From NCBI GenBank assembly GCA_003402745.1, contig QQND01000021.1, forward strand, positions 1 through 40,744: 40,744 nt of DNA. The letters are read 5' to 3'. Origin of the DNA: Verrucomicrobiota bacterium. Its GTDB lineage: Bacteria; Verrucomicrobiota; Verrucomicrobiia; Chthoniobacterales; Chthoniobacteraceae. Below the pieces are notes generated by a model. The model worked only from the letters and a program-made list of their open reading frames with translations, did not search any database and was not told the DNA's origin. Below are positions 4,841 through 40,744 of this stretch, piece by piece. How positions within the stretch are numbered: position 1 is the first letter of the stretch; each line of letters opens with the position of its first letter. Position numbers and translations under genes: made by a program.

Positions 4841-6193
4841 TTAGCGCGCCCCCCGCGACGCGACCGCACGCGGGTTCCAAGCAGCATCCTGTAGGCCTTG
4901 GAGTCGCTGGACTTCCTGGGGAAGCTCTTGAGAGAGGTCGCTTTTTTCGAGGGGATCTTTCTGGAGGTCAAACAGAGCAGACTGCGATGGCACGCCGGCA
5001 AAGGCGCGTTTTTCGTCCCTCAAACCAGTAGGAGTGATGAGCTTGAACCATCCATTAATGGTCACGGTGGCGAGCAGGCTTTTGGAGGGGTCGTTAAGGT
5101 CCTCAATGTCGTGGGTGTAGGCTTCGACGTGGACTGTTTTCCGAGCTTGCATCGCCCGCTTGTCCAGAAGGTTAAGCCCTGGCAGGGAGGGTATGTCTCT
5201 GGCGCCGCTGACCCCTAGGATGGTGGGGACAAAATCAAGAATGGAGGCGAGCGTTTCGTCGTCGCGCACTGGAGCGACCTTCCCCGGCCAGCGCACGAAC
5301 ATCGGGGTGCGGATGCCCAATTCGTAGGGGGAAAGTTTCGCGCGATCACCCTGATACCCTCTGTCGGCATCCCACCCGTTGTCCGTGAGGTAGAGGATGA
5401 CGGTATTTTCAGCGAGGTGATGGCTTTGGAGGTAGTTGTCAAGCTCCCCGCAGGTTTGGTCGAACCATTCGACCATGCCGTAGTACTTTTCGGCTTTCGG
5501 AGATAGCCCCTTGCCCTGGTAGTGCTCAAGAAATTGGGCTGGGGGAGTGTGGGGATCATGGGGCATCATCGGCGCGTACCAGACAAAGAACGGTTTCTTC
5601 TCGGCCTGGGATTGCTCGATGAAGTCATAAATCGGCTGCATGGTTTTTCTGCCAATGTCGAGGCCCCCGCCCCCATGCCGTCCTGTTTTATCCGTCATTC
5701 CGTCGGTGAATCCGACATCCTGATACACCACATTCCAAAGTTTACCGGTTTGAAGGGTGCGGTATCCGGCTTTGGTAAGGGCGTTAGGGAGGAGTGTCTC
5801 GTTGCCTAGAAGTCGTTCCACCAGCGGCGCGCGCTCAGTTCCCTTGGCGCGAATGGCGAGTTGGGCTTTGGAAAGGTCGTTGCCCGTGATGCCGTTTTGG
5901 TGGGGCATTTTTCCCGTGAGCAGGCACGCAAGAGAGGGCGAGCAGACGGGCATCACATAACCGCGCGTGTACAGCAGGCTTTGCGCGGCCATCCGGTCGA
6001 TATTGGGGGTGCGTACGTGGGGGTGCCCCATGAACCCGTAATCTCCAAATCCTTGATCGTCGGAAATGATGAGTATGATGTTTGGGGGTTGCGAAGGGGG
6101 GAGTTTTGGGGATTCAGCCCCAAGCGCGCGTGCGGCGAGACTCGTGCAGAGAACGAACAGAAAAAGCAGGCTGCGTAGGGAGGGGGCCGTCAT
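4841..6193 (-). CDS. Secreted sulfatase-family hydrolase with atypical C-x-P-S-L motif
   Basis: 450 residues from the ATG at 6193, chosen because it places a clean signal peptide first (MTAPSLRSLLFLFVLC...ALGA). A GTG at 6283 would add 30 residues before the signal sequence. The fold is alkaline-phosphatase/sulfatase: metal-binding Asp45-Asp46 in IISDDQGFGDYG, later HDPHTPP, DNGWDADRG and KLSPYELGIRTPM. The maturation site reads Cys84-Ser-Pro-Ser-Leu88-Ala instead of the usual C-x-P-S-R-A. The Cys that becomes formylglycine is kept, but the Arg is Leu. Such enzymes in PVC bacteria usually remove sulfate esters from polysaccharides in the periplasm or outside; the substrate cannot be told here. 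It is monocistronic and convergent with katG. Confidence 0.9.
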   Translation of the reverse strand: MTAPSLRSLLFLFVLCTSLAARALGAESPKLPPSQPPNIILIISDDQGFGDYGFMGHPHVRTPNIDRMAAQSLLYTRGYVMPVCSPSLACLLTGKMPHQNGITGNDLSKAQLAIRAKGTERAPLVERLLGNETLLPNALTKAGYRTLQTGKLWNVVYQDVGFTDGMTDKTGRHGGGGLDIGRKTMQPIYDFIEQSQAEKKPFFVWYAPMMPHDPHTPPAQFLEHYQGKGLSPKAEKYYGMVEWFDQTCGELDNYLQSHHLAENTVILYLTDNGWDADRGYQGDRAKLSPYELGIRTPMFVRWPGKVAPVRDDETLASILDFVPTILGVSGARDIPSLPGLNLLDKRAMQARKTVHVEAYTHDIEDLNDPSKSLLATVTINGWFKLITPTGLRDEKRAFAGVPSQSALFDLQKDPLEKSDLSQELPQEVQRLQGLQDAAWNPRAVASRGAR

Positions 6194-6484
6194 CTCCCAA
6201 GTAAATCCGAGAATGGCATGAATGTTAACTTTTTCTAGAGGCCCACCCTGAGGGGCGGCTTCGAATTTGTGGGTAGAGGGCACCCTCCTTGGCCGGCGCG
6301 TGCCGGAACATTCCAGAAGATGAAGCTCGAGGGCTGCCGCGACTGCCTATGATGCGGTGACGGGATGACTCCAGAATCGCGCGGGAAGGGTTCTTTGCCA
6401 CAAACTTTGGATTGCGAAGCCGCGCATCAGAAGACGTAGTAGGCCATCTGCCTAAGCGATCCTGTTAAATCGCAACCAAAAATT

Positions 6485-15146: not shown

Positions 15147-16307
15147 ATGCAAAACGCGGCCGCCTCAAGACTCGTTCTGGAACCCTACTCGGAAGCCACG
15201 GTCATCACCGCGGCCCGCGAGTGCCTGCAATCCCTCAAGCGCAACCCAAGTCTCGTCATCGCGTTCGTCACCGCCGATTACCGCCCCTTCCTCCAAGATT
15301 TTCTCGAGCTAGTCCAACTGCACGCCCACGCCACGCTTATTGTTGGCGGTAGCGCGAGCGGCCTCATCGGCTCTGGAGTGGAGGCTGAGAGTGGCTCTGG
15401 CTTCTCGCTCCAATTGCTCTCGCTTCCCTCCAGTCGCCTCTGTCCGATCACCTTCAACGAAGACCAGTCAGATGATTTTACAGAATCAGACTGGAAAAAC
15501 GCGGTGGGTCGGGCGGCGGATTCCGACGCGTGGCTGTTTTTAGGCAACCCGCTCAAGGTCGCGGCCGAACCGTGGCTGCGCGCCTGGTCGGCGGCGTTCC
15601 CAGGGATCCCAACCATCGGGGGCCTGCTCAGCGGCGGAGAACGAGGAGACGACGTCTTTGTGTTTCACAACCGCAGTGAGGTGGAGGCCGGTATCGCCAT
15701 TGGAATCAAGGGAGGCGTCAAGGTCCACGCGGTCGTGAGCCAGGGCTGCCGCCCCATCGGCGAGCCCCACGCCATCACAGGAGCGAGCGAGAACGTCGTC
15801 AAGTCCATCGGGTCTCTACCCGCCTACGAACGGCTCAACGAATCCTTTGAGTCCCTTTCCTCCGAGGACAAGGCCCGGGCCGCTGGTAATATTTTCGCGG
15901 GCCTCGCGGTGAACGAATACGTGGACGACTTCAAGACCGGAGATTTTCTGATCAGAAACCTTGTCGATTTCGACCCCACTTCGGGCGCCGTAGCTCTGGC
16001 CGCTTATCCCCGTGTGGGCCAAACCCTTCAGTTTCAACTCAGGGACAGGCACTCAGCGGACGAAGAACTCAAGCATCTGCTCACAAGTAAAGCGAAGGAA
16101 GGAATTAAGCCGTTCGCCTCACTGATGTTCGTGTGCGGAGGCCGGGGCGAGGGCTTGTTTGGCAAAAGTAGCCACGATGCCCAGGCGCTCCGGGACCAGT
16201 TCGGTCCGATCCCAAACGCCGGATTGTTCTGCAATGGAGAAATCGGCCCAGTGGGAGGCGGCAATTTTGTACACGGCTACACCGCCGTCATCGGGCTCTT
16301 CGAATAG
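15147..16307 (+). CDS. FIST N/C domain sensory protein
   Basis: 386 residues with a FIST_N region (IVGGSASGLIGSGVE, PGIPTIGGLLSGGERGDDV) followed by FIST_C (AYPRVGQTLQFQLRDRHSAD, MFVCGGRGEGLFG and PNAGLFCNGEIGPVGG). FIST domains are proposed small-ligand (possibly amino-acid) sensors, often attached to kinases or chemoreceptors; this one is free-standing and has no output domain, signal peptide or membrane helix. It lies 14 bases after gatA, so it is probably cotranscribed with the amidotransferase genes; the meaning of that link is unknown. Confidence 0.88.
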   Translation: MQNAAASRLVLEPYSEATVITAARECLQSLKRNPSLVIAFVTADYRPFLQDFLELVQLHAHATLIVGGSASGLIGSGVEAESGSGFSLQLLSLPSSRLCPITFNEDQSDDFTESDWKNAVGRAADSDAWLFLGNPLKVAAEPWLRAWSAAFPGIPTIGGLLSGGERGDDVFVFHNRSEVEAGIAIGIKGGVKVHAVVSQGCRPIGEPHAITGASENVVKSIGSLPAYERLNESFESLSSEDKARAAGNIFAGLAVNEYVDDFKTGDFLIRNLVDFDPTSGAVALAAYPRVGQTLQFQLRDRHSADEELKHLLTSKAKEGIKPFASLMFVCGGRGEGLFGKSSHDAQALRDQFGPIPNAGLFCNGEIGPVGGGNFVHGYTAVIGLFE

Positions 16308-31312: not shown

Positions 31313-31963
31313 CTAAGGGCGCTCCACCAACCCTTCCTTCAGCGCTTTCGCGACAACGCCGCTGCGAGTGCTGACTTGTAACTTCTCATAGATCTCCCGG
31401 ATGTAGCCGTCGGCCGTGTGGTAGCTGATTTGAAGCTCCGCAGCGGCCTCTTTGGTGCTCTGTCCTTGCACCAAGAGTTGGAGAATCTTTTTTTCGCGCG
31501 GGGTAAGCCCATAGTCCTTCCTCGGCGGATTGGCTTTAGAAAACATATCCAGGACCCGGCGGGCGATCGTCGGATTAATAGGAGAGCCTCCCGCAGCAGC
31601 ACTAAGAATCGCCGTGGCAATATCCTCAGTGCTGCTTGTTTTCAAAAGATAGCCCGCGGCTCCGGCACAAATGGCACGAAAGATTTTATCATCGTCCTCA
31701 AAGACGGTCAGGATCACGACTGCGACGCGCGGGGCGAGTTGGCGCAGGCGTGCTATCCCGTCAATGCCGTTCATACCCGGCAGCTCCACATCGAGAAGAA
31801 GAACTTGCGGAGCATTGTGCTCTGAAAGCGCCGTCAAAGCGTCTTCGCAGGCGGTAAAGCGTCTCGGACAGGCAATTCCAGTCAGCCGATTCAAAGCGCG
31901 GGCGAGGCGCTCACCGTACGTTTTGTGGTCCTCGATAAGCCAGACTTGAATGGGGTCAGTCAT
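31313..31963 (-). CDS. NarL/LuxR-type response regulator
   Basis: 216 residues from the ATG at 31963 (MTDPIQVWLIEDHKTYGERL); a longer open frame to 32179 lies inside the kinase gene and is not used. Receiver domain: acidic pair Glu11-Asp12, phosphoacceptor Asp58 in LLLDVELPGMNG, signalling Thr in ILTVFEDDD, and Lys in AAGYLLKTSS. The output domain is a LuxR/GerE helix-turn-helix (YGLTPREKKILQLLVQGQST and YHTADGYIREIYEKLQVSTR). The start overlaps the end of the kinase gene by 8 nt, so they are coupled partners. The regulator likely binds inverted repeats near its targets; the duplicated repeat at 34043 and 39942 is the obvious candidate. Confidence 0.95.
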   Translation of the reverse strand: MTDPIQVWLIEDHKTYGERLARALNRLTGIACPRRFTACEDALTALSEHNAPQVLLLDVELPGMNGIDGIARLRQLAPRVAVVILTVFEDDDKIFRAICAGAAGYLLKTSSTEDIATAILSAAAGGSPINPTIARRVLDMFSKANPPRKDYGLTPREKKILQLLVQGQSTKEAAAELQISYHTADGYIREIYEKLQVSTRSGVVAKALKEGLVERP

Positions 31964-33962
31964 AAACGGGAAGGTTGATGGTGAGGGCGGTGCCGCGCGC
32001 CGGAGCGGAGTCAATACGCACGCTGCCCCCATGTTTGGCGGCGCGGCGCTGGAGATTGGTGAGCCCCATGCCTTCAGTGGCAGCCGCAGGATCAAAGCCG
32101 TGACCGTTGTCATGCACGGTGACACTGAGCTGAGTACTGCTTTGCTCGACGCGGATTTCCACAGCGGTCGCGGCAGCATGGCGCGTGACGTTGTACAGCC
32201 CTTCTTTGAACATGAGGATGAGGTCGCGCTGGCGGTCGACGGGCAGTTTTCGGGCGGGTTCCGAGGCTTCGAGTGTCAAGGTGTGAGGGACGTTGCGCAG
32301 CAGGCGCGCGGCGGTTTCGCGCAGAAGCGTGGCGAGGTCATCGGAGCCGTAACGATCGCTCTGTATGAGACGCGTAATATCGCGCATGGCGCTGACCGTT
32401 TCATCGGCGATGTGTTTGATCTCATCAAGGTCAGAGTGCGTCTGTGCACTGCCACCACCGCTGGCAAGGATATCCTGCGTGATAAGGGCGATGCTGCCGA
32501 GGCTGCTACCGATTTCATCGTGCAAATCCCGCGCAATTCGCTGCCGCAAGGCTTCCATCTCGAGGAGTCGCGTGCGCCGTTGACGCATGGACCACTCGAT
32601 GAAGGCAGCCAACCCGGTCACGATCAGAACGCCCAGCGCGCCGAGACCATAGTGCTCCCACTGCTGGACAAGTTGTCTTTTGCGTGCTTCGATGGCCTCG
32701 ACTTGCTGCGCGACCTCGCGTCGCCTAGAGAGGCCGGCGAGCCATTCAGGCCACTCAAGGATGTTTGCCGTGCTGGTAAAGCCATCGACAAGAGCGGCCT
32801 TTGACCAGCCGCCCGTCTCGGTAGAATCCGAGGCGCTCACGGATTTGCCAAGCGCAACATTTTTGCCGCCAGACCACACCTGCATCTCGGCAAGTGCGAG
32901 CAATGCGGAACCATTACTCACATGCGACTCCACGACCGTGAGGCCGATATGGCGCGCATTTTGTCCACCTGCCACGAGGGTGACCACGTTGTCCCCTGGC
33001 GGACCACTGTAATTGCCAGCTGGGGGCGGCGTCACGATGAAGGGCGTCGCTTCGGCGGTCTCACGAAGCTCGATTTGATAACGCAAGGGAAATCCATAGC
33101 CATGACTGTGCGCGAACTCCGGCGGATGCGCGGGAAACAGACGCACTTCGTCGACAGAAACGGCACTGCCAAGATCCACAGAAACTTGCTGCAATTTCCG
33201 TTCCATGCTCTCGCTTGCGGGTTTGCTTCGAAAGCCACGCGCAGGACTAGCCTTTACGCCTAGCGGTGGCCCGAGGACGCTCTGGCCGTCCACCAGATTG
33301 ATGCGTCCCCAAGCGGGCCGGCTGCCCTGGCTGCTACTCGCCTGAACAGCAATAGGACCGATTGCTTCAATCAGTGTTCCTAGGTTGCGACTACCGCGCA
33401 GTAGCATCACTTCGCCCAGCGCAAAAAGATGGCGTTGCTCTTCTTGGAACAATCGGGTCGCCGTGATGCGCACTTTGCCCGCTACGATCCCATGCGCCGG
33501 AATCACAACCGGCAGCCATCCAGGATTTTGGAAGTCCTCACGCGTGTGATCGGCAATGATGGTGCGCACGGCTGAATTCGGACCGCTGAAAACCTCGACA
33601 CGGAAGCGCAACGGAAATCCGTAACCTGGCCCGGTGGCGCCCCCGCCGGAAGCTGGAGCGATGAGAACCACGGCATCGAGCGCCTCCGACTGGGCGAGCC
33701 GGAGATCCACCCATTCAAGGGTGTCCGCAGAGGTAGAGAATTGACTATGCCAGCCCAGCCGTTGCGTGAACTCAGGTTCGGGGGCCTTTGGCAAAGAAGG
33801 CAGCGCGAGGTGCAATGTCAGCCGTTCCGCATCGAGTCGCCTCATCTCCGGGCTCAGGAGACGGACAACTTTTTCCGCAATGGCCTCACTTGAATCGGCA
33901 GCTAAGCAGGGGCACAGCAGCAACACTCCGGTCGTAAAGACGACAGAGAGCCGGCGAAGCAT
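31956..33962 (-). CDS. Histidine kinase with discoidin-like sensor repeats (HisKA_3 type)
   Basis: 668 residues from the ATG at 33962, which starts a good signal peptide (MLRRLSVVFTTGVLLLCPCLA); ATGs at 33995 and 34028 are also open. The extracytoplasmic part has two related beta-sandwich units, each with GYGFPLR (GYGFPLRFRVEV, GYGFPLRYQIEL) and ending in ALGEV/ALAEM, and a third partial unit (NVALGKSVSASDSTETGGW and AALVDGFTSTANILEWPEWL). This is the F5/8-type discoidin pattern, usually carbohydrate- or surface-binding. A coiled segment, one TM helix (YGLGALGVLIVTGLAAFIEW), a HisKA_3 box with His481 (ARDLHDEIGSSLGSIA) and a HATPase (NVTRHA, DNGHGFD, GMGLTNLQRR) follow. Divergent from the DUF1552 operon, which it likely controls through the coupled regulator. 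Confidence 0.92.
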   Translation of the reverse strand: MLRRLSVVFTTGVLLLCPCLAADSSEAIAEKVVRLLSPEMRRLDAERLTLHLALPSLPKAPEPEFTQRLGWHSQFSTSADTLEWVDLRLAQSEALDAVVLIAPASGGGATGPGYGFPLRFRVEVFSGPNSAVRTIIADHTREDFQNPGWLPVVIPAHGIVAGKVRITATRLFQEEQRHLFALGEVMLLRGSRNLGTLIEAIGPIAVQASSSQGSRPAWGRINLVDGQSVLGPPLGVKASPARGFRSKPASESMERKLQQVSVDLGSAVSVDEVRLFPAHPPEFAHSHGYGFPLRYQIELRETAEATPFIVTPPPAGNYSGPPGDNVVTLVAGGQNARHIGLTVVESHVSNGSALLALAEMQVWSGGKNVALGKSVSASDSTETGGWSKAALVDGFTSTANILEWPEWLAGLSRRREVAQQVEAIEARKRQLVQQWEHYGLGALGVLIVTGLAAFIEWSMRQRRTRLLEMEALRQRIARDLHDEIGSSLGSIALITQDILASGGGSAQTHSDLDEIKHIADETVSAMRDITRLIQSDRYGSDDLATLLRETAARLLRNVPHTLTLEASEPARKLPVDRQRDLILMFKEGLYNVTRHAAATAVEIRVEQSSTQLSVTVHDNGHGFDPAAATEGMGLTNLQRRAAKHGGSVRIDSAPARGTALTINLPVYD

Positions 33963-34042
33963 AGCCACCAAAGCCAGTGAAAGAAACACACGCATCCGTA
34001 CAAATGAGATGCTCCACTTTGGCACCATTCAGCCCGAGTGAC

Positions 34043-34080
34043 ACCCCCGAGTTTTCGGGGGTAGCTGCTCTCTGAGAAAG
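34043..34080 (+). promoter_or_regulatory. Inverted-repeat element, copy 1 (candidate operator or leader)
   Basis: CCCCCGA (34044-34050) and TCGGGGG (34055-34061) form a perfect 7-bp dyad with GTTT between, one pair longer if A43/T62 is counted. A conserved arm (GCT at 34064-34066, CT at 34072-34073, AAG at 34078-34080) follows. The same element recurs at 39942-39980: 31 of 37 positions are identical and the 19-base core is exact. Here it lies between the divergent kinase and DUF1552 genes, 118 bases before the DUF1552 ATG, so it cannot be a terminator of either. Confidence 0.65.
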
Positions 34081-34179
34081 GTGGCACAATGACAAGCGTT
34101 TTAATCCCAACGTTACCTCCCGTTTCTGTTTCGTTCGAAAACCGAGAGCAATTTTACCCTCAACCAACGCATACGCACC

Positions 34180-35424
34180 ATGTTGTCTTCCCCTCTTTCA
34201 CGACGCCACTTCCTGCGCGGCGTCGGCGTCACCCTTGCGCTTCCCTGGCTGGAGACCCTTGCGAGGGCGGCGGCACCTCCTGCGACGCAACGATTCGTTT
34301 GTGTGGCAAATCCCTTTGGCATGATCCGCGATGCCTTCTTTCCGACCGAAAATGGGCTGAATGCCACCCTCCCCGGCAATATCGCGCCCTTTGAATCGCT
34401 GCGCGGCAAGTTCACCGTCCTCTCAAACCTCGACCACGGAAATAACGGAGGCCACGGAGGCACTCACATGTTCCTCTCGGGAGTGAAATCGTCCGAGGCT
34501 ACCGCCATGCCGGACGGCAACATCTCGCTCGATCAGTGCCTCGCGCGGCACGTCGCCGGTCAGACGCGGTTTCCCGTGCTCAACACCTCGGCCGGACCCG
34601 TCGGCGGTGGCGGCGTGGAGCTTTGCTGGACGCGCACCGGAGTGATGGTGCCTCCAGTGCAGCAGGTGTCGCGCGTCTTCAAGATGCTCTTCGTCGATGA
34701 GCCCACCGGTCAAACCGCTGCTCGCGCCACGGACTACGAGCGGCAGGGCTCCGTCCTTGATGCCGTAAACGCTCAGGCCAAAAGCATGACAAGCCGGCTT
34801 TCGGGTCGCGACAAAGAGAAGCTGGACCAGTACTTCACCGCCATTCGCGACGTGGAGAAATCGCTCGAACAGGAAAAGGCCTGGCTCTCTCGCCCACGAC
34901 CAAAAGTGGACTCGAAAGAACCGAAGGACGGTACCGTCAGCCAGCAACTGCCAATTCTCTTCGATCTCGTAGCGCTCGCCCTGCAGACAGACTCCACACG
35001 CATTGCCACGATTGAAGTACCGGGCTCTTTCGATACCGCCGCAATGGGCATCGAGGAAAAGGGCTACCACGGCTACTCGCACCACGGCAAGGACCCAGTG
35101 CTGATGGAAGGCATGAGAAAGGTGGAGCGCTACCAGATGCTCCACTTGGCGAAGTTTCTTACGAAGCTCGAGGAATTCGGCCTGCTCGACACCACGCAGG
35201 TGCTCTTCGGAAGCGGCATGGGCGACGGCAGCGCCCACACCAACGAGAGTCTGCCCCTGCTCCTGGCGGGCGGCGGCTACAAGCACCGCACCCACATCAC
35301 CCTCCCAGAAGCAAAAGAGAAACGCGTGCCGCTGTCCAATCTCTACCTCTCTATGGCGCAACGCTTCGGAGTCGAGACGGGTTCGTTTGGCAAGAGCAAG
35401 AGCACTTTCGATGAGCTGTCATGA
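34180..35424 (+). CDS. DUF1552 domain protein with Tat signal
   Basis: 414 residues. The N-terminus LSRRHFLRGVGVTLALPWLE is a twin-arginine signal (S7-R8-R9-H10-F11-L12), so the protein is exported folded. The body is the DUF1552 family seen in Planctomycetes, Verrucomicrobia and myxobacteria: FVCVANPFGMIRDAFFPTE, LSNLDHGNNGGHGGTHMFLS, GNISLDQCLARH, MEGMRKVERYQMLHLAKFLT, and LFGSGMGDGSAHTNESLPLL. A role has not been established for this family; its fold relatives are alkaline-phosphatase-like or DUF1501-like proteins, and it is almost always next to a DUF1592 cytochrome-like gene, as here. Stop overlaps the next start by 4 nt. First gene of the operon. Confidence 0.93.
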   Translation: MLSSPLSRRHFLRGVGVTLALPWLETLARAAAPPATQRFVCVANPFGMIRDAFFPTENGLNATLPGNIAPFESLRGKFTVLSNLDHGNNGGHGGTHMFLSGVKSSEATAMPDGNISLDQCLARHVAGQTRFPVLNTSAGPVGGGGVELCWTRTGVMVPPVQQVSRVFKMLFVDEPTGQTAARATDYERQGSVLDAVNAQAKSMTSRLSGRDKEKLDQYFTAIRDVEKSLEQEKAWLSRPRPKVDSKEPKDGTVSQQLPILFDLVALALQTDSTRIATIEVPGSFDTAAMGIEEKGYHGYSHHGKDPVLMEGMRKVERYQMLHLAKFLTKLEEFGLLDTTQVLFGSGMGDGSAHTNESLPLLLAGGGYKHRTHITLPEAKEKRVPLSNLYLSMAQRFGVETGSFGKSKSTFDELS

Positions 35425-38075
35425 GGCACGCAAAAAACGCATCCATCGCACTCGCACTGCTTCTGGCCACTGCTAGCACGAGCCTCGGTGCCAAAAGCGA
35501 TAACTCGTCCGTCGGCATACCGGCCCCCATCACCAAGGAGGTGCGCTCCTTCCTTTCCGTCCACTGTTTTGATTGCCACGACGACGCCACTAAAAAAGGC
35601 GACGTGTCGCTCGAGACACTGGGCGATGCAGTCACCGGCAACACAGCCAGCGGCTGGCTCCGCGCCCTGGAGCAAATCGAGCGCGGCACCATGCCGCCGC
35701 CCAAAAAAACACAACCTGCCGGCGAGGAACGGCAAGCGGCCGTGCTCGCGCTGGAGGGCGCGCTGGTATCCCACACCCAAAGCAGACCCGCCCACGACAC
35801 CTCCGTGCTGCGGCGACTGAACCGCACGGAATACCGCCGCACGCTGGAGGATCTCCTGCATCTCGACCTAAGCAGGCGCGATCCAACGATCGAATTCCCG
35901 GAGGACAACCGCTCGCACGGCTTTGCCTCGAACGGCGAAAAGCTGGTGACTTCCAGTTATCTGATGCGTCACTATCTGACTGCCGCGAACGATGTCGTCA
36001 GTCGTGCCCTCCATTTTGAGGCAAAGCCCGAGGTCCTCACCTTCTCGCCAGCGCCACCGTTCGAGAGAACGTCGTTGGGCCATCGCTACTCCGAGCGGGA
36101 GTGGTATGCGAAGCGTCTCCGCCAGCCGCAACCCTACCAGACACTCGAATACCGCGACAGCAGCGTGCCCCTGGAAGACCTCCGGGAAGGCGTTCCGGTT
36201 GCGGGCTGGTATTCCATCCGCGTGCTCGCCGAGGCGAAATTTCGATATGCGGACATGGATCCAAAAAAAATGTTCGGCGGCACCGCTCTCATTGACCCGA
36301 CTCAGCCGCATCGACTGGCAATGACGCTCAGCACACTGCTCGGCGTGGACCCGGCGAACAAGGACGCCGTCCGCGATGCGCTGATCGGCAGCTATGGCGA
36401 CGTCGTATCGACGGATGGTCGCGCCGTGGCAATCTGGGATGTGCCCGATGACGTCCCGACCTGGCTCGAATGCCGCGTCTGGCTGGAGGCGGGGCAATTC
36501 CCCAGGTTCTCGTTCCCGAATGGTCCCTCGAATAGCAACAATCGCATCACTGGCTTCGTCAAAGATAACAAATACACCCTCCTCGACAAAAAGCAGCTCG
36601 CGGCCTTTGAACAGGCAGATCTCGGCGACGGGAGCCTCCTGATCTTATTCGAGACACCGCGCATCCGCCTTCACAAGGCCGAGGTGAAAGGCCCGCTCAA
36701 CGAGCAATGGCCGCCGCCGAGCCACCGCGCCATTTTTGGTGGCACGCCCTATGCCTCTGAGAACGCAGGCGAGGTGCTGCGCACCTTCGCCGAGCATGCC
36801 TGGCGGCGTCCAGTGACGAACGCCGACGTGGAGCCAATCGTTAATCTCGTGCGCGCTTCGGAAAAGGCGGCGACCCATGCGGGCACGCCTCCGCCGCAGG
36901 CCGCGGAGGCAGCAATCACGCAGGGCGTCAAGGCGGTGCTTTGTGCTCCGGAGTTCCTCTATCGCGAAGAACGCAACCCAAAACTGAACGGCCACGAGAT
37001 CGCCTCACGGCTCTCCTATTTCCTGTGGTCATCCCTGCCGGATGAAAAGCTCATGGCCAGAGCCAATGCAGCTGATCTCTCACGACCCGAGGTTCGGCGA
37101 AAAGAAGCCGAGCGGATGCTCGCCGATTCTCGCTCCAACACCTTCGTACGCGAGTTTCTCGACGGCTGGCTAACGATGCGGAAGCTCGGCTCGATGAAGC
37201 CCCAAGGCGGCGGCTTCAATATCTACTATGACGATAATCTCGAGCCCGCGATGCGCACGGAGACCCGTCTCTTCTTCAAACGCCTACTGCAAACCAACGG
37301 CCCCATCGCCGACCTCCTCGACTCCGACTACACCTTCGCGAACCGGGGGCTTGCCAAGCTGTATGGCCTCGACTGGCAGGCCGCCGAGGCCAATATCGGC
37401 AAGCCCGTAGAAGGCCTCACGCGCCAGGACCTTCAGCCTGACGGCGCCGGTGATGCCCCGTCGCAAGGTTTCGTTCAGGTGAAACTCACCGACAAACGCC
37501 GCGGCGGGCTGCTCGGCCAGGCGAGTGTCCTCACGCTCACAGCCAATGGCGTAGACACCTCCCCCGTCATCCGAGGCGCATGGCTGCTCGAAAACATCCT
37601 AGGTGCCCCGCCCTCGCCACCGCCGCCAGATATCCCCGTGATCGAGCCCGACATCCGCGGAGCGACCACAATCCGCGATCGCCTCCAGAAGCATCGCGAC
37701 AACCCCTCGTGCATGAATTGCCACCGGCAGATCGACCCACCCGGTTTTGCGCTGGAGAGCTTTGATGCCATCGGCCGCTGGCGCGGACACTACAACGCCG
37801 TCAACAACACGAGGCTGCCGGTCGATCCCAGCGGTGAATTTGGGGATGCAAAGTTCAAGGATGTGATTGGTTTTAAGGAAGCGCTCTTGCAGCGGCAGTC
37901 CCAGTTCGCCCGCTGCCTCGTAGAGAAGCTGCTCATCCACGCCCTCGGCCGCGATTTGAGCGCCGCCGACCGTCCCGCCATCCGCCGCATCGTCGAGCAG
38001 GCCGCCACCAACGGGTACCGCCTCCGCGACCTCGTCCTGCTGTGCTGCGAGAGCAACCTCATCGCCCAGAAATGA
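35421..38075 (+). CDS. PSCyt1/DUF1592-type secreted multidomain cytochrome-like protein
   Basis: 884 residues with a signal peptide (ALALLLATASTSLGA). Approximate domain order: PSCyt1 40-105 with haem motif CFDCH (Cys49, Cys52, His53) and MPPPKK; DUF1587 129-196 (LRRLNRTEYRRTLEDLLHLD); a central insertion; DUF1595 446-512 (FAEHAWRRPVT); DUF1592 521-650 (EIASRLSYFLWSSLPDEKLM, YTFANRGLAKLYGL); DUF1588 695-788 (GLLGQASVLTLTANG and CMNCHRQIDPPGFALESFD); DUF1585 812-882. The second CMNCH (Cys764, Cys767, His768) gives two c-type haem sites in all. Such proteins are abundant in PVC bacteria; their reaction is unknown. Starts inside the DUF1552 stop (ATGA) and its own stop overlaps the next gene. 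Confidence 0.94.
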   Translation: MRHAKNASIALALLLATASTSLGAKSDNSSVGIPAPITKEVRSFLSVHCFDCHDDATKKGDVSLETLGDAVTGNTASGWLRALEQIERGTMPPPKKTQPAGEERQAAVLALEGALVSHTQSRPAHDTSVLRRLNRTEYRRTLEDLLHLDLSRRDPTIEFPEDNRSHGFASNGEKLVTSSYLMRHYLTAANDVVSRALHFEAKPEVLTFSPAPPFERTSLGHRYSEREWYAKRLRQPQPYQTLEYRDSSVPLEDLREGVPVAGWYSIRVLAEAKFRYADMDPKKMFGGTALIDPTQPHRLAMTLSTLLGVDPANKDAVRDALIGSYGDVVSTDGRAVAIWDVPDDVPTWLECRVWLEAGQFPRFSFPNGPSNSNNRITGFVKDNKYTLLDKKQLAAFEQADLGDGSLLILFETPRIRLHKAEVKGPLNEQWPPPSHRAIFGGTPYASENAGEVLRTFAEHAWRRPVTNADVEPIVNLVRASEKAATHAGTPPPQAAEAAITQGVKAVLCAPEFLYREERNPKLNGHEIASRLSYFLWSSLPDEKLMARANAADLSRPEVRRKEAERMLADSRSNTFVREFLDGWLTMRKLGSMKPQGGGFNIYYDDNLEPAMRTETRLFFKRLLQTNGPIADLLDSDYTFANRGLAKLYGLDWQAAEANIGKPVEGLTRQDLQPDGAGDAPSQGFVQVKLTDKRRGGLLGQASVLTLTANGVDTSPVIRGAWLLENILGAPPSPPPPDIPVIEPDIRGATTIRDRLQKHRDNPSCMNCHRQIDPPGFALESFDAIGRWRGHYNAVNNTRLPVDPSGEFGDAKFKDVIGFKEALLQRQSQFARCLVEKLLIHALGRDLSAADRPAIRRIVEQAATNGYRLRDLVLLCCESNLIAQK

Positions 38076-39124
38076 GGGTCCCGAAAATGAACCTGACTTT
38101 GTCCCCTCGCCTCTTCTTCTCCACCGTCTTCGCCGCGTGCGCTCTACCGTCTTTGGCGCTAGCCCAGGATTCGAGCAAGCTCACCACCCTCACCGTCGAG
38201 CAGGCCCGGGAAGTGATGGCGAAGAAGCCCGGCATGGTGGGCTCCGCCGACGGCCGTTTTGCGAACTTCGACGCCCTCACCACGCTCACACCAGAGGTTG
38301 CGGAGGTCCTCGTGAACCACGATGGCGCGCTGTCACTCAACGGCCTCAAGGAGTTGTCAGCCGAAACAGCCTCCGTGCTAGCGAAGCATCCAGCAATGAA
38401 GCAGTTCGGGTATGCCGACCTTCGGCTCAACGGCTTGAAAACGATCTCGCCACATGCCGCCGAGGCACTCGCCGCGCACCAGGGTAAGGTACTGCTCTAC
38501 TCGCTGGAAAAACTCGACTCCCTTCCGCTCGCTCAAAAGCTCGCGCGGCAGTGGGGTGAACTGCGTCTTGGGATCTCGGAACTTTCCCCTCCCATCGCCG
38601 CCGAACTCGCCAAACACCGCGGCACTGACGAGGACAAAACACGCCCCGGTGTCATCTTGCGCCGCCAGGACGGCGCAGCCTCCGTCCTGCGCATCGACAA
38701 CCTCGCGTCGCTCTCGCCCGAGACTGCGGAAGCCCTTGCCGCCCACGAAGGCGTGCTCGTGCTCAATGACCTCACCTCACTCCCGCCCGCGGTTGCCGTC
38801 TCGCTTGCCAAACGCGCAGGGAACACCAATGCGGTGCGCTCCAATGGGTCAAGTGTCACGGCTAAACGGACCGGCACACTCGTACTCAACGGGCTGGAGA
38901 CCCTCTCCACCGAATCCGCCGCCGCCCTCGCCGCTTTTACCGGCGAACTCGTGCTGAAGGCAATCACTGAGTTGCCTCCCGACACCGCCGCCGCCCTCGC
39001 CCAACATAAAGGCCGCCTCCACCTCACCGGCCTCACCAAACTCAGCCCCGAGACCCACACCGCCCTGCAACGCCACGCCAACCTGCTCCTCCCTCGCCCG
39101 CTCCCGCTGACCGCTGGGAAGTGA
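38072..39124 (+). CDS. Secreted LRR-like repeat protein
   Basis: 350 residues from the ATG at 38072, which overlaps the previous stop as ATGA; an ATG at 38087 is also possible. A signal peptide (LFFSTVFAACALPSLALAQ) leads to about ten irregular repeats of roughly 23-45 residues with the pattern L-x-L-x-x-L-x-x-L-(S/P)-x-x-x-A-x-x-L-A-x-H-x-G, for example LSLNGLKELSAETASVLAKH, LVLNGLETLSTESAAALAAF and LHLTGLTKLSPETHTALQRH. This is the degenerate leucine-rich-repeat form frequent in Planctomycetes and Verrucomicrobia surface proteins. It probably binds a protein or polymer partner outside the cell. Third gene of the operon. Confidence 0.8.
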   Translation: MRVPKMNLTLSPRLFFSTVFAACALPSLALAQDSSKLTTLTVEQAREVMAKKPGMVGSADGRFANFDALTTLTPEVAEVLVNHDGALSLNGLKELSAETASVLAKHPAMKQFGYADLRLNGLKTISPHAAEALAAHQGKVLLYSLEKLDSLPLAQKLARQWGELRLGISELSPPIAAELAKHRGTDEDKTRPGVILRRQDGAASVLRIDNLASLSPETAEALAAHEGVLVLNDLTSLPPAVAVSLAKRAGNTNAVRSNGSSVTAKRTGTLVLNGLETLSTESAAALAAFTGELVLKAITELPPDTAAALAQHKGRLHLTGLTKLSPETHTALQRHANLLLPRPLPLTAGK

Positions 39125-39143
39125 GTGAAGAAGATTCAAGAAC

Positions 39144-39869
39144 ATGAAAGCCCCCCTGACGCTCTTCACTGCACTCCTGCTCGCACCGCTGGTCACGCTG
39201 GCAGATTTGAAGGAACATTTCTCCGACCCAATCAGGTTTGCGGAAGATTGGGTGCCCTACGGACGGCTTGCCGACGGCACCTGGGCGCAAGGGTTTGGCC
39301 AAGCCAGGCCCGAGTGGTGGGCGCTGGAGGATGGAGCGCTGTGCGGACAAAACTTCCCAGAAGAAAAACACCCCGCCGGCATTTCGCTGAAAGAGAACCT
39401 GCCCCAGGCCCAGCTCGCCGAAACCGGCGCACGTATTTCCTGGCGCATCAAGGTTACCGAAACGAGCCGGGGCACCCTGCGCCTCTTCGGCATCTCCAGC
39501 GGCCCTCATTCGCAGGAGGCCACCGACAATCACGTGCTCGCGCTCGACGTCTCAGCCGCCGGTCTGCGTCTTTGGAATGGCAACCGCGAGCTGACCGCAC
39601 CCGCACCAGACAAGGAATCGAGAAAGTATCGCAATACCGTTTTTGAGGAAAAATCCTCAGGCGGCGTGACTCCCGGCGCCTGGCACGCCGTCGTGCTAGA
39701 GGTGAAAGGCAGCGACGTCCGGGTGTTCCTCGACGGGAAGGAGTCCGTAAAAATGAAGCTTCCTCAGGAACAGCCGCTGCGCAGCCTCAGCCTCGAAGCC
39801 GACGGCGACAAAAAATCCCACGGACTCGCTTGGTTCGACGACATCACCGTAGCGCCGCTGCCAAAATAA
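39144..39869 (+). CDS. Secreted concanavalin/LamG-like protein
   Basis: 241 residues with a signal peptide (MKAPLTLFTALLLAPLVTLA). The rest is a beta-sandwich of DUF1080/LamG type: DPIRFAEDWVPYGRLADGTW, WWALEDGALCGQNFPEEKHP, RISWRIKVTETSRGTLRLFG, GAWHAVVLEVKGSDVRVFLD and a closing HGLAWFDDITVAPLPK. Such domains bind or cleave glycans; no catalytic residues can be assigned. It lies 19 bases after the LRR-like gene and appears to be the last gene of the four-gene operon. Confidence 0.78.
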   Translation: MKAPLTLFTALLLAPLVTLADLKEHFSDPIRFAEDWVPYGRLADGTWAQGFGQARPEWWALEDGALCGQNFPEEKHPAGISLKENLPQAQLAETGARISWRIKVTETSRGTLRLFGISSGPHSQEATDNHVLALDVSAAGLRLWNGNRELTAPAPDKESRKYRNTVFEEKSSGGVTPGAWHAVVLEVKGSDVRVFLDGKESVKMKLPQEQPLRSLSLEADGDKKSHGLAWFDDITVAPLPK

Positions 39870-39941
39870 GACAGAGAAGAAAAGGCACGTCTATTCGCGA
39901 CATACACAACCACCACCTTGCTAAAAAACATCCCTGATTGC

Positions 39942-39980
39942 ACCCCCCGAGTTTTCGGGGGTGGCTACCCGCTAAGGAAG
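39942..39980 (+). promoter_or_regulatory. Inverted-repeat element, copy 2, upstream of second PSCyt1 gene
   Basis: The same core as at 34043: CCCCCGA (39944-39950), GTTT, TCGGGGG (39955-39961), then the arm with GCT (39964-39966), CT (39972-39973) and AAG (39978-39980). It ends about 32 bases before the ATG at 40013. A TATAGG-like -10 (39988-39993) follows. Differences from copy 1 are mainly transitions. It sits 72 bases after the end of the previous operon. Confidence 0.65.
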
Positions 39981-40012
39981 AAACCAGTATAGGGTAGTCT
40001 TTCCGATTAACT

Positions 40013-40744
40013 ATGACTCCCCGCTTTCTCGCTCACTCATCCTTCGCCGCCGCGCTCCTCCTCGCAACGGCTGGCGGCATGGCTGCTGACGCGCCGGTCA
40101 CCGCTCTCGATTCCAAGGTCACCACTTACTTAGAGCAGCACTGCAACAAGTGCCACGATGCGGATGTGCAAAAAGGCGACTTCCGGCTCGACACACTCTC
40201 GCCAAAGGTCGGCTTTGAGAACACGCCGCAGTGGATAGAGATCATGGAGCGCATTAACTCCGGAGAAATGCCGCCCAAAAAGGAGAAGAAGCGTCCTTCA
40301 GCGGAAGACAGCGCCAAGGTAGTCGAGTGGATCGCGGCGAAGATGAAGGATGGCGAGCAAGCGCGCATGGCCTCGCGTGGTCGCGTGACCTACAACCGGC
40401 TCACCCGGGACGAGTATGTGAACACGCTGCGTGATCTCATCGGCGTGCAGTATGACGCCAAGGACCCGGGCGCTCTACTGGAAGACCAGGAATGGCATGG
40501 CTTTGAGCGCATCGGCTCGGTGCTGACCCTGTCGCCCTCTAACATTGAAAAATATCTCGTCGCGGCGGAGACGGTCTTGAAAGAGGCCTACCCTGAGATT
40601 ATGCCGCCAAAAAAGGGCGCGAAACCCGAGCCGCCCTTCGGAGGATCGAAGCCTGCAATTTACGAGGATCAGGTGGACGAGCGGCATCGCGAACGCCTGC
40701 GTGAAATGGGCCTGCTCGACAAGGTGCGCTACGAGATGTGGCCA
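40013..40744 (+). CDS. Second PSCyt1/DUF1587-type cytochrome-like protein (3'-truncated by window edge)
   Basis: The ATG at 40013 opens a frame that is still open at the last base (244 codons). Signal peptide MTPRFLAHSSFAAALLLATA, then the PSCyt1 domain with haem motif CNKCH (Cys44, Cys47, His48), QKGDFRLDTLSPKVGF and SGEMPPKKEKKRP. A DUF1587 segment (RVTYNRLTRDEYVNTLRDLI) follows at about residues 121-140. It is related to the first PSCyt1 gene at 35421 but clearly diverged, and begins a second operon behind copy 2 of the inverted-repeat element. The DUF1595/1592/1588/1585 parts would be downstream. Confidence 0.9.
   Translation, partial: MTPRFLAHSSFAAALLLATAGGMAADAPVTALDSKVTTYLEQHCNKCHDADVQKGDFRLDTLSPKVGFENTPQWIEIMERINSGEMPPKKEKKRPSAEDSAKVVEWIAAKMKDGEQARMASRGRVTYNRLTRDEYVNTLRDLIGVQYDAKDPGALLEDQEWHGFERIGSVLTLSPSNIEKYLVAAETVLKEAYPEIMPPKKGAKPEPPFGGSKPAIYEDQVDERHRERLREMGLLDKVRYEMWP

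Follow-up and report, generated by a model that had tools for sequence, protein, structure and literature searches.

A palindromic element upstream of PSCyt operons in Chthoniobacteraceae is a predicted operator of an adjacent NarL-type two-component regulator

Introduction

Response regulators of the NarL/FixJ family recognise operators such as the lux box, the ComA box, and the DosR box, which are dyads of about 18–20 bp located upstream of their target genes. Here, we describe an 18-bp palindrome that occurs twice in a stretch of 40,744 nucleotides (the whole of it hereafter called the window; contig QQND01000021.1, assembly GCA_003402745.1) from a Verrucomicrobiota bacterium of the family Chthoniobacteraceae. 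The palindrome stands beside the genes of a HisKA_3-type histidine kinase and a NarL-type response regulator and in front of operons of the PSCyt/PSD/DUF1552 kind. With a probability of about 0.82, we consider it to be a double-stranded DNA operator of this kinase–regulator pair, bound by a dimer.

The locus resembles the NarL/FixJ systems in that, by Pfam, the regulator carries a GerE-type helix-turn-helix and is partnered by a HisKA_3 kinase, and in the dyad in front of the target genes. It differs from them in (i) the half-site, which is CCCCCG/CGGGGG; (ii) the centre, NNTTYT; (iii) the motif TAD[GED]Y of the recognition helix; and (iv) the targets, which are PSCyt operons. Passages of PMC5615132 describe PSCyt genes as numerous in many freshwater Verrucomicrobia and call their functions unknown. 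The target genes of our locus are, by Pfam, standard members of the PSCyt/PSD/DUF1552 clusters of Planctomycetes and Verrucomicrobia treated in those passages, in comparison with which a regulator and an operator are predicted here for a subset. An initial annotation of the window had stated that no such element was known. As a kind, two-component operators are known; no regulator or operator of PSCyt genes was among the literature matches listed, and three strings of the half-site and centre had no occurrence in the literature searched.

Results

The element CCCCCGAGTTTTCGGGGG is an 18-bp imperfect palindrome, present as copy A (positions 34044–34061) and as an identical copy B (39944–39961), neither assigned to a strand. 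With its flanking A and T, the dyad of copy A extends to 20 bp (34043–34062). Recomputation reproduced the repeat of the initial annotation, in which positions 34044–34080 and 39944–39980 share 31 of 37 bases, with complete identity over the first 19 (CCCCCGAGTTTTCGGGGG plus T). Both copies lie in non-coding gaps: copy A between the divergent genes of the histidine kinase (31956–34028, minus strand) and of a DUF1552 protein (34180–35424, plus strand), and copy B 51 nt upstream of the ATG (40013, plus strand) of a second PSCyt1/PSD3 gene. At up to 3 mismatches, the window contained 2 copies compared with a mean of 0.11 in shuffled sequences, and none of 100 shuffles contained 2 or more. The draft genome of the same organism (2,786,444 bases in 102 contigs, 68.8% complete) revealed a third exact copy on another contig (G000:C33:1415), 51 nt upstream of the ATG of another PSCyt1-type gene. 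Beyond these 3 exact copies, none was found in this draft at up to 2 mismatches, and the reversed control gave 0. The distribution is not that of a scattered repeat, as all 3 copies precede PSCyt/DUF1552 operons (operons are assigned from gene order and strand throughout). Because the genome has 20 PSD3 and 19 DUF1552 matches, the element marks a subset of such operons. A loose pattern, CCCCCGN6CGGGGG with 1 mismatch, gave 27 matches compared with 23 in the reversed control and was discarded as background.

The placement before PSCyt/DUF1552 genes recurred in related genomes, where the initial annotation had suggested looking for it; the matches were neither scattered nor spread through coding regions, and the element was conserved. 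Among 213 genomes of the order, the pattern CCCCCGNNTTYTCGGGGG had 21 matches in 9 genomes (1 in the reversed control), and in 57 genomes 18 matches at up to 1 mismatch were found, in 8 of them (0 in the reversed control). Seventeen of the 21 matches are located upstream of PSD3/DUF1552 operons: 3 each in G000 (the genome of the window), G003, and G010, 2 each in G004 and G008, and 1 each in G009, G013, G024, and G026. One further match, in G008, is upstream of a DUF1501-PSCyt1/PSCyt2 operon. In G003, 4 copies (one with a mismatch) stand upstream of 4 operons within 26 kb, adjoining the kinase–regulator pair. Identity among the target genes is as low as about 30% for some.

Several neighbours of these palindromes were recorded in passing. 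On contig C92 of G008 (L096), 2 palindromes with similar flanks were observed at 2510 and 4123, one before a gene without a Pfam family and one before a DUF1501-PSCyt1/PSCyt2/PSD1 operon; the latter suggests that this type of regulator may also serve the other PSCyt class. An 820-aa protein with a putative Ig (He_PIG) domain is encoded between a palindrome and a paralogous kinase–regulator pair in L095 (G008:C31, 4966–7428). LRR-like proteins adjoin palindrome-bearing PSCyt operons in L091 (G003:C1; 9596–10966, which is below the Pfam cut-off, and 15268–16269) and in L096 (1075–2130).

A search of 84,980 species genomes returned 50 stretches with the exact 18-mer, and tblastn with the kinase, regulator, DUF1552, and PSD proteins gave matches in 15 of them. 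Twelve of the 15 match a DUF1552 or PSD protein; L109 matches the kinase only, L124 shows a regulator fragment only, and L133 shows kinase and regulator only, as its sequence runs out 38 bases away from the palindrome. The 15 comprise metagenome-assembled genomes (MAGs) of Chthoniobacteraceae, Chthoniobacter flavus Ellin428, and records labelled Verrucomicrobiaceae and Opitutae. The public MAG labels of L123, L124, and L149 (Akkermansia muciniphila for 2 and Opitutus sp. for 1) are doubtful. In L109, L143, and L146, the kinase is only 55–62% identical and the 18-mer is unchanged. Many of the other 35 stretches, from unrelated taxa, are terminator-like stems followed by T runs.

The kinase (HisKA_3 and HATPase_c), whose ATG and copy A are 15 nt apart, and the regulator (31313–31963, minus strand; Response_reg and GerE) are encoded together, and their Pfam matches are above the cut-off. 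The recognition helix of the regulator, our proposed binder, reads SYHTADGYIR. Regulators 86–91% identical to it are present in G003, G004, G008, G010, and G013, and one at 75% is present in G026. In a tree of 36 regulators (35 from the genome search plus that of L146, with the partial regulator of L143 excluded), a 100/99 branch separates 12 from the rest, and the recognition helix of each of these 12 contains TAD[GED]Y. The other 24 have TV, TI, TL, or TT followed by D (22 regulators), TVS (one), or TAD without the following [GED]Y (one, G024:C150). The palindrome is present at the loci of 11 of the 12 TAD[GED]Y-group regulators, in 2 cases with arm changes, and at none of the other 24. A scan of these 24 loci (3.4 to 10 kb each) at up to 4 mismatches found no palindrome with CCCCCG arms, and it returned 2 armless matches, in L168 (3 mismatches, inside the kinase match) and in L217 (4 mismatches).

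By genome (n = 213), 8 have both the palindrome and a group regulator, none has the regulator only, 1 (G009) has the palindrome only, and 204 have neither, which corresponds to a nominal Fisher p of 1e-13 for related genomes uncorrected for kinship. No group regulator at E <= 1e-55 was found in the 204 palindrome-free genomes among the best candidates of each, which numbered at most 14 per genome, so that weaker ones may be missed; another search scored as many as 53 candidates in 57 of the 213 genomes.

Four further loci with paralogous group regulators carry variants of the palindrome, namely G024:C22, G004:C216, G008:C31, and G008:C260. The palindrome of G008:C260, CCCCCGAGTTCTCGTGGG, has a DUF1552 match 139 nt downstream and came to light only once its regulator fragment had joined the group; it is an unplanned test of the link between palindrome and regulator. 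In this locus (L210, 268–1816), the regulator and kinase matches are in pieces and are followed by the palindrome, with one arm change, at 1678 and then by the DUF1552 match; the state of the kinase suggests damage or misassembly. In G008:C40 (L155, 2472–2866), 2 substitutions have altered the arms of the palindrome, and only fragments remain of the PSCyt gene that follows it, beside a kinase–regulator pair that appears intact. This is one case of a predicted operator and its target decaying together.

Conservation was measured on 17 of 27 listed copies. The copies left aside were those of G009 (because copy and flanks equal those of G003), G026, L109, G024, G004b, and, in G008, C31 (twice), C92 (twice), and C121; G008:C260 is absent from the list, the measures, and the covariation test. 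Mean pairwise identity is 0.96 in the palindrome, a value that is partly a search artefact because the copies were mostly found through the palindrome, 0.34 just upstream, and 0.64 over bases 1–18 downstream, the last value being raised because the excluded copies are mostly more divergent. The per-column information, calculated from 15 of the 17 copies (L107 and L143 have a 1-base shift), and the identities delimit a conserved block on the plus strand after each window copy, TAGCTGCTCTCTGAGAAAG (34062–34080), which may be a −35 region or an extra contact, after copy A and TGGCTACCCGCTAAGGAAG (39962–39980) after copy B. The conserved downstream bases include T1, G3, C4, C11, T12, A13, A14, A17, A18, C24, A25, and T29.

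The centre of the palindrome varies, with the forms GAGTTTTC, GAGTTCTC, GAATTCTC, GATTTCTC, GTGTTCTC, and GTATTCTC, and 26 copies represent 10 distinct cores. In G008:C213 and C92, the centre is inverted relative to the gene, and the ATG of C213 is still 51 nt away. A centre that can vary and be inverted is the behaviour of a DNA site bound by a dimer.

In the 15 copies with a PSCyt-type first gene (G009 included), the distance from palindrome to ATG is 51 nt in 11, 50 nt in 2, 53 nt in 1, and 139 nt in 1. In the window, a weak −10-like hexamer, CACAAT (34085–34090, plus strand), was read by hand after copy A, and a weak hexamer, CAGTAT (39985–39990, plus strand), is at the same distance after copy B, with TATAGG starting 3 bases later. 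The equal spacing of −10 elements claimed in the initial annotation was off by 3 bases: CACAAT starts at 34085, 24 bases past the palindrome, and TATAGG at 39988, 27 bases past it. Two hand-read promoter registers, TAGCTR/CACAAT and CTAAGGAA/GTAGTY, both fit.

Between copy A and the DUF1552 start, positions 34112–34137 (plus strand) are a likely relic of a PSCyt-type gene start, in the same register as the start of the PSCyt copies, which begins ATGACTCCCCG. The DUF1552-type copies G000a, G003c, G010b, and G013 have all kept a PSCyt-like gene start at the same distance. Comparable relics were observed near the palindromes of L092, L100, and L102. The relics before DUF1552 genes indicate that a segment of promoter plus gene start seems to have been copied before other operons. 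Such copying explains part of the similarity of the flanks, and the copies are therefore not fully independent. At even odds, we picture a TAD[GED]Y kinase–regulator lineage of Chthoniobacteraceae and relatives dedicated to PSCyt operons, whose operator travels in a cassette of promoter plus gene start copied before unrelated PSCyt/DUF1552 operons, so that a multi-operon regulon arises by promoter capture, and whose paralogous pairs moved to new operons with a changed centre and nearly fixed CCCCCG arms.

In the window, the DUF1552 (HXXSHH) gene is the first of operon A and is followed on the plus strand by a PSCyt1-PSD3-PSD5-PSD4-PSCyt3-PSD2 gene (35421–38075) and by 2 further genes without a Pfam family (38042–39124 and 39144–39869). 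Operon B begins with the second PSCyt1/PSD3 gene (40013–40744, plus strand), which runs off the contig. Elsewhere in the window are an 804-aa protein of the Peroxidase family (PF00141; 2300–4714) and a sulfatase (4841–6283).

Discussion

The initial annotation had offered 2 explanations, an operator of the NarL-type regulator or a leader RNA hairpin. The operator is favoured by where the copies are placed, by the way they accompany a single group of regulators, and by the inverted centre; the hairpin is disfavoured by the lack of covariation in a low-power test, by arm changes that break pairs, and by the lack of an Rfam match at the gathering threshold. We infer that the adjacent NarL-type regulator is the binder and that the promoter immediately downstream is the one it controls. 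In the proposed mechanism, the kinase would phosphorylate the regulator, a dimer of which would contact the two CCCCCG half-sites through its recognition helices. The regulator would thereby control several PSCyt/DUF1552 operons, with 3 such promoters in its own genome, and perhaps also the divergent kinase–regulator pair. The predicted operator rather likely serves activation, because the site is upstream of what are probably the promoter elements and a good sigma-70 promoter was not found.

Several observations weigh against this operator. (i) The promoter elements have no single placement: a scan for consensus sigma-70 promoters around both window copies found none, neither of the two hand-read registers included. 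(ii) At least 17 of the 20 PSD3 matches of the genome are without the element. (iii) Three of the 21 CCCCCGNNTTYTCGGGGG matches, all in G008, are not upstream of a recognised PSCyt operon; one stands before a He_PIG gene, behind which comes a paralogous kinase–regulator pair, another before an ORF of 155 aa close to the end of its contig, and the third before a gene that has no Pfam family and lies beside a regulator fragment. (iv) In L109, the palindrome is beside a kinase only, with no PSCyt/DUF1552 match in its 8 kb. (v) The group regulator without a palindrome at its locus is G026:C56, the palindrome of its genome being on another contig. (vi) G009 has the palindrome and no such regulator was found in it; its copy and flanks, on a 5.5-kb contig, equal those of G003 over the stretch shown. 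(vii) Regulator and palindrome often lie in one inherited or duplicated block, so that their co-occurrence is partly common descent. The search bias in the identity of the palindrome, noted above, belongs to the same side.

A structured RNA leader, that is, a hairpin at the 5′ end of the PSCyt operon mRNAs or, on the other strand, of the kinase mRNA that steers translation or termination, is unlikely in our view. The palindrome can form a stem of 7–8 pairs with a 4-nt loop. It precedes the ATG by 50–53 nt in 14 of the 15 PSCyt-type copies, and in the window the kinase ATG is 15 nt away. On the kinase strand, the stretch is more stably folded than every one of 200 shuffles (z −3.72), and folding on the operon strand is weaker (window copies, z −1.71 and −2.15; G024, z −0.65). 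Within the stem, however, none of 7 pairs shows a compensatory change, no one-sided change keeps a pair, and all 5 departing cells among 147 (21 distinct rows) break the pair, in a test whose power is low, with 4 of the 7 pairs invariant and 10 distinct cores in 26 copies. Furthermore, the centre may be inverted (G008:C213 and C92) or leave only 2 unpaired bases, no Rfam match was found in the window at the gathering threshold, several copies have no kinase match alongside, and an association with one group of DNA-binding regulators would be unexpected for an RNA leader. A minor role of the hairpin in the kinase leader may exist.

The palindrome could also be the operator of another, unlinked DNA-binding protein that co-occurs with the kinase–regulator pair, as G009, with its palindrome and no group regulator found, and G026, with the two on different contigs, would allow. 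We consider this very unlikely, because variants of the palindrome go with paralogous group regulators at the 4 further loci and the search of the 204 palindrome-free genomes, at E <= 1e-55, found no group regulator. Least credible by far is that the palindrome is an intrinsic terminator, or a neutral repeat spread with duplicated operon starts: when it occurs outside Verrucomicrobia, the 18-mer frequently forms a stem with a T run behind it, and segments of promoter plus gene start do appear to be duplicated, with relics before DUF1552 genes, but neither window copy is followed by a T run or overlapped by a terminator prediction, the palindrome is more conserved than its flanks (subject to the same search bias), and no copy in the genome of the window lies away from PSCyt/DUF1552 operons.

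If the palindrome is the operator of the NarL-type regulator, as we predict, a defined operator would give a handle on the PSCyt genes. It would single out, among the 20 PSD3 matches of the genome, those that act together, and the signal of the kinase, once found, would tell when this set of PSCyt operons is used.
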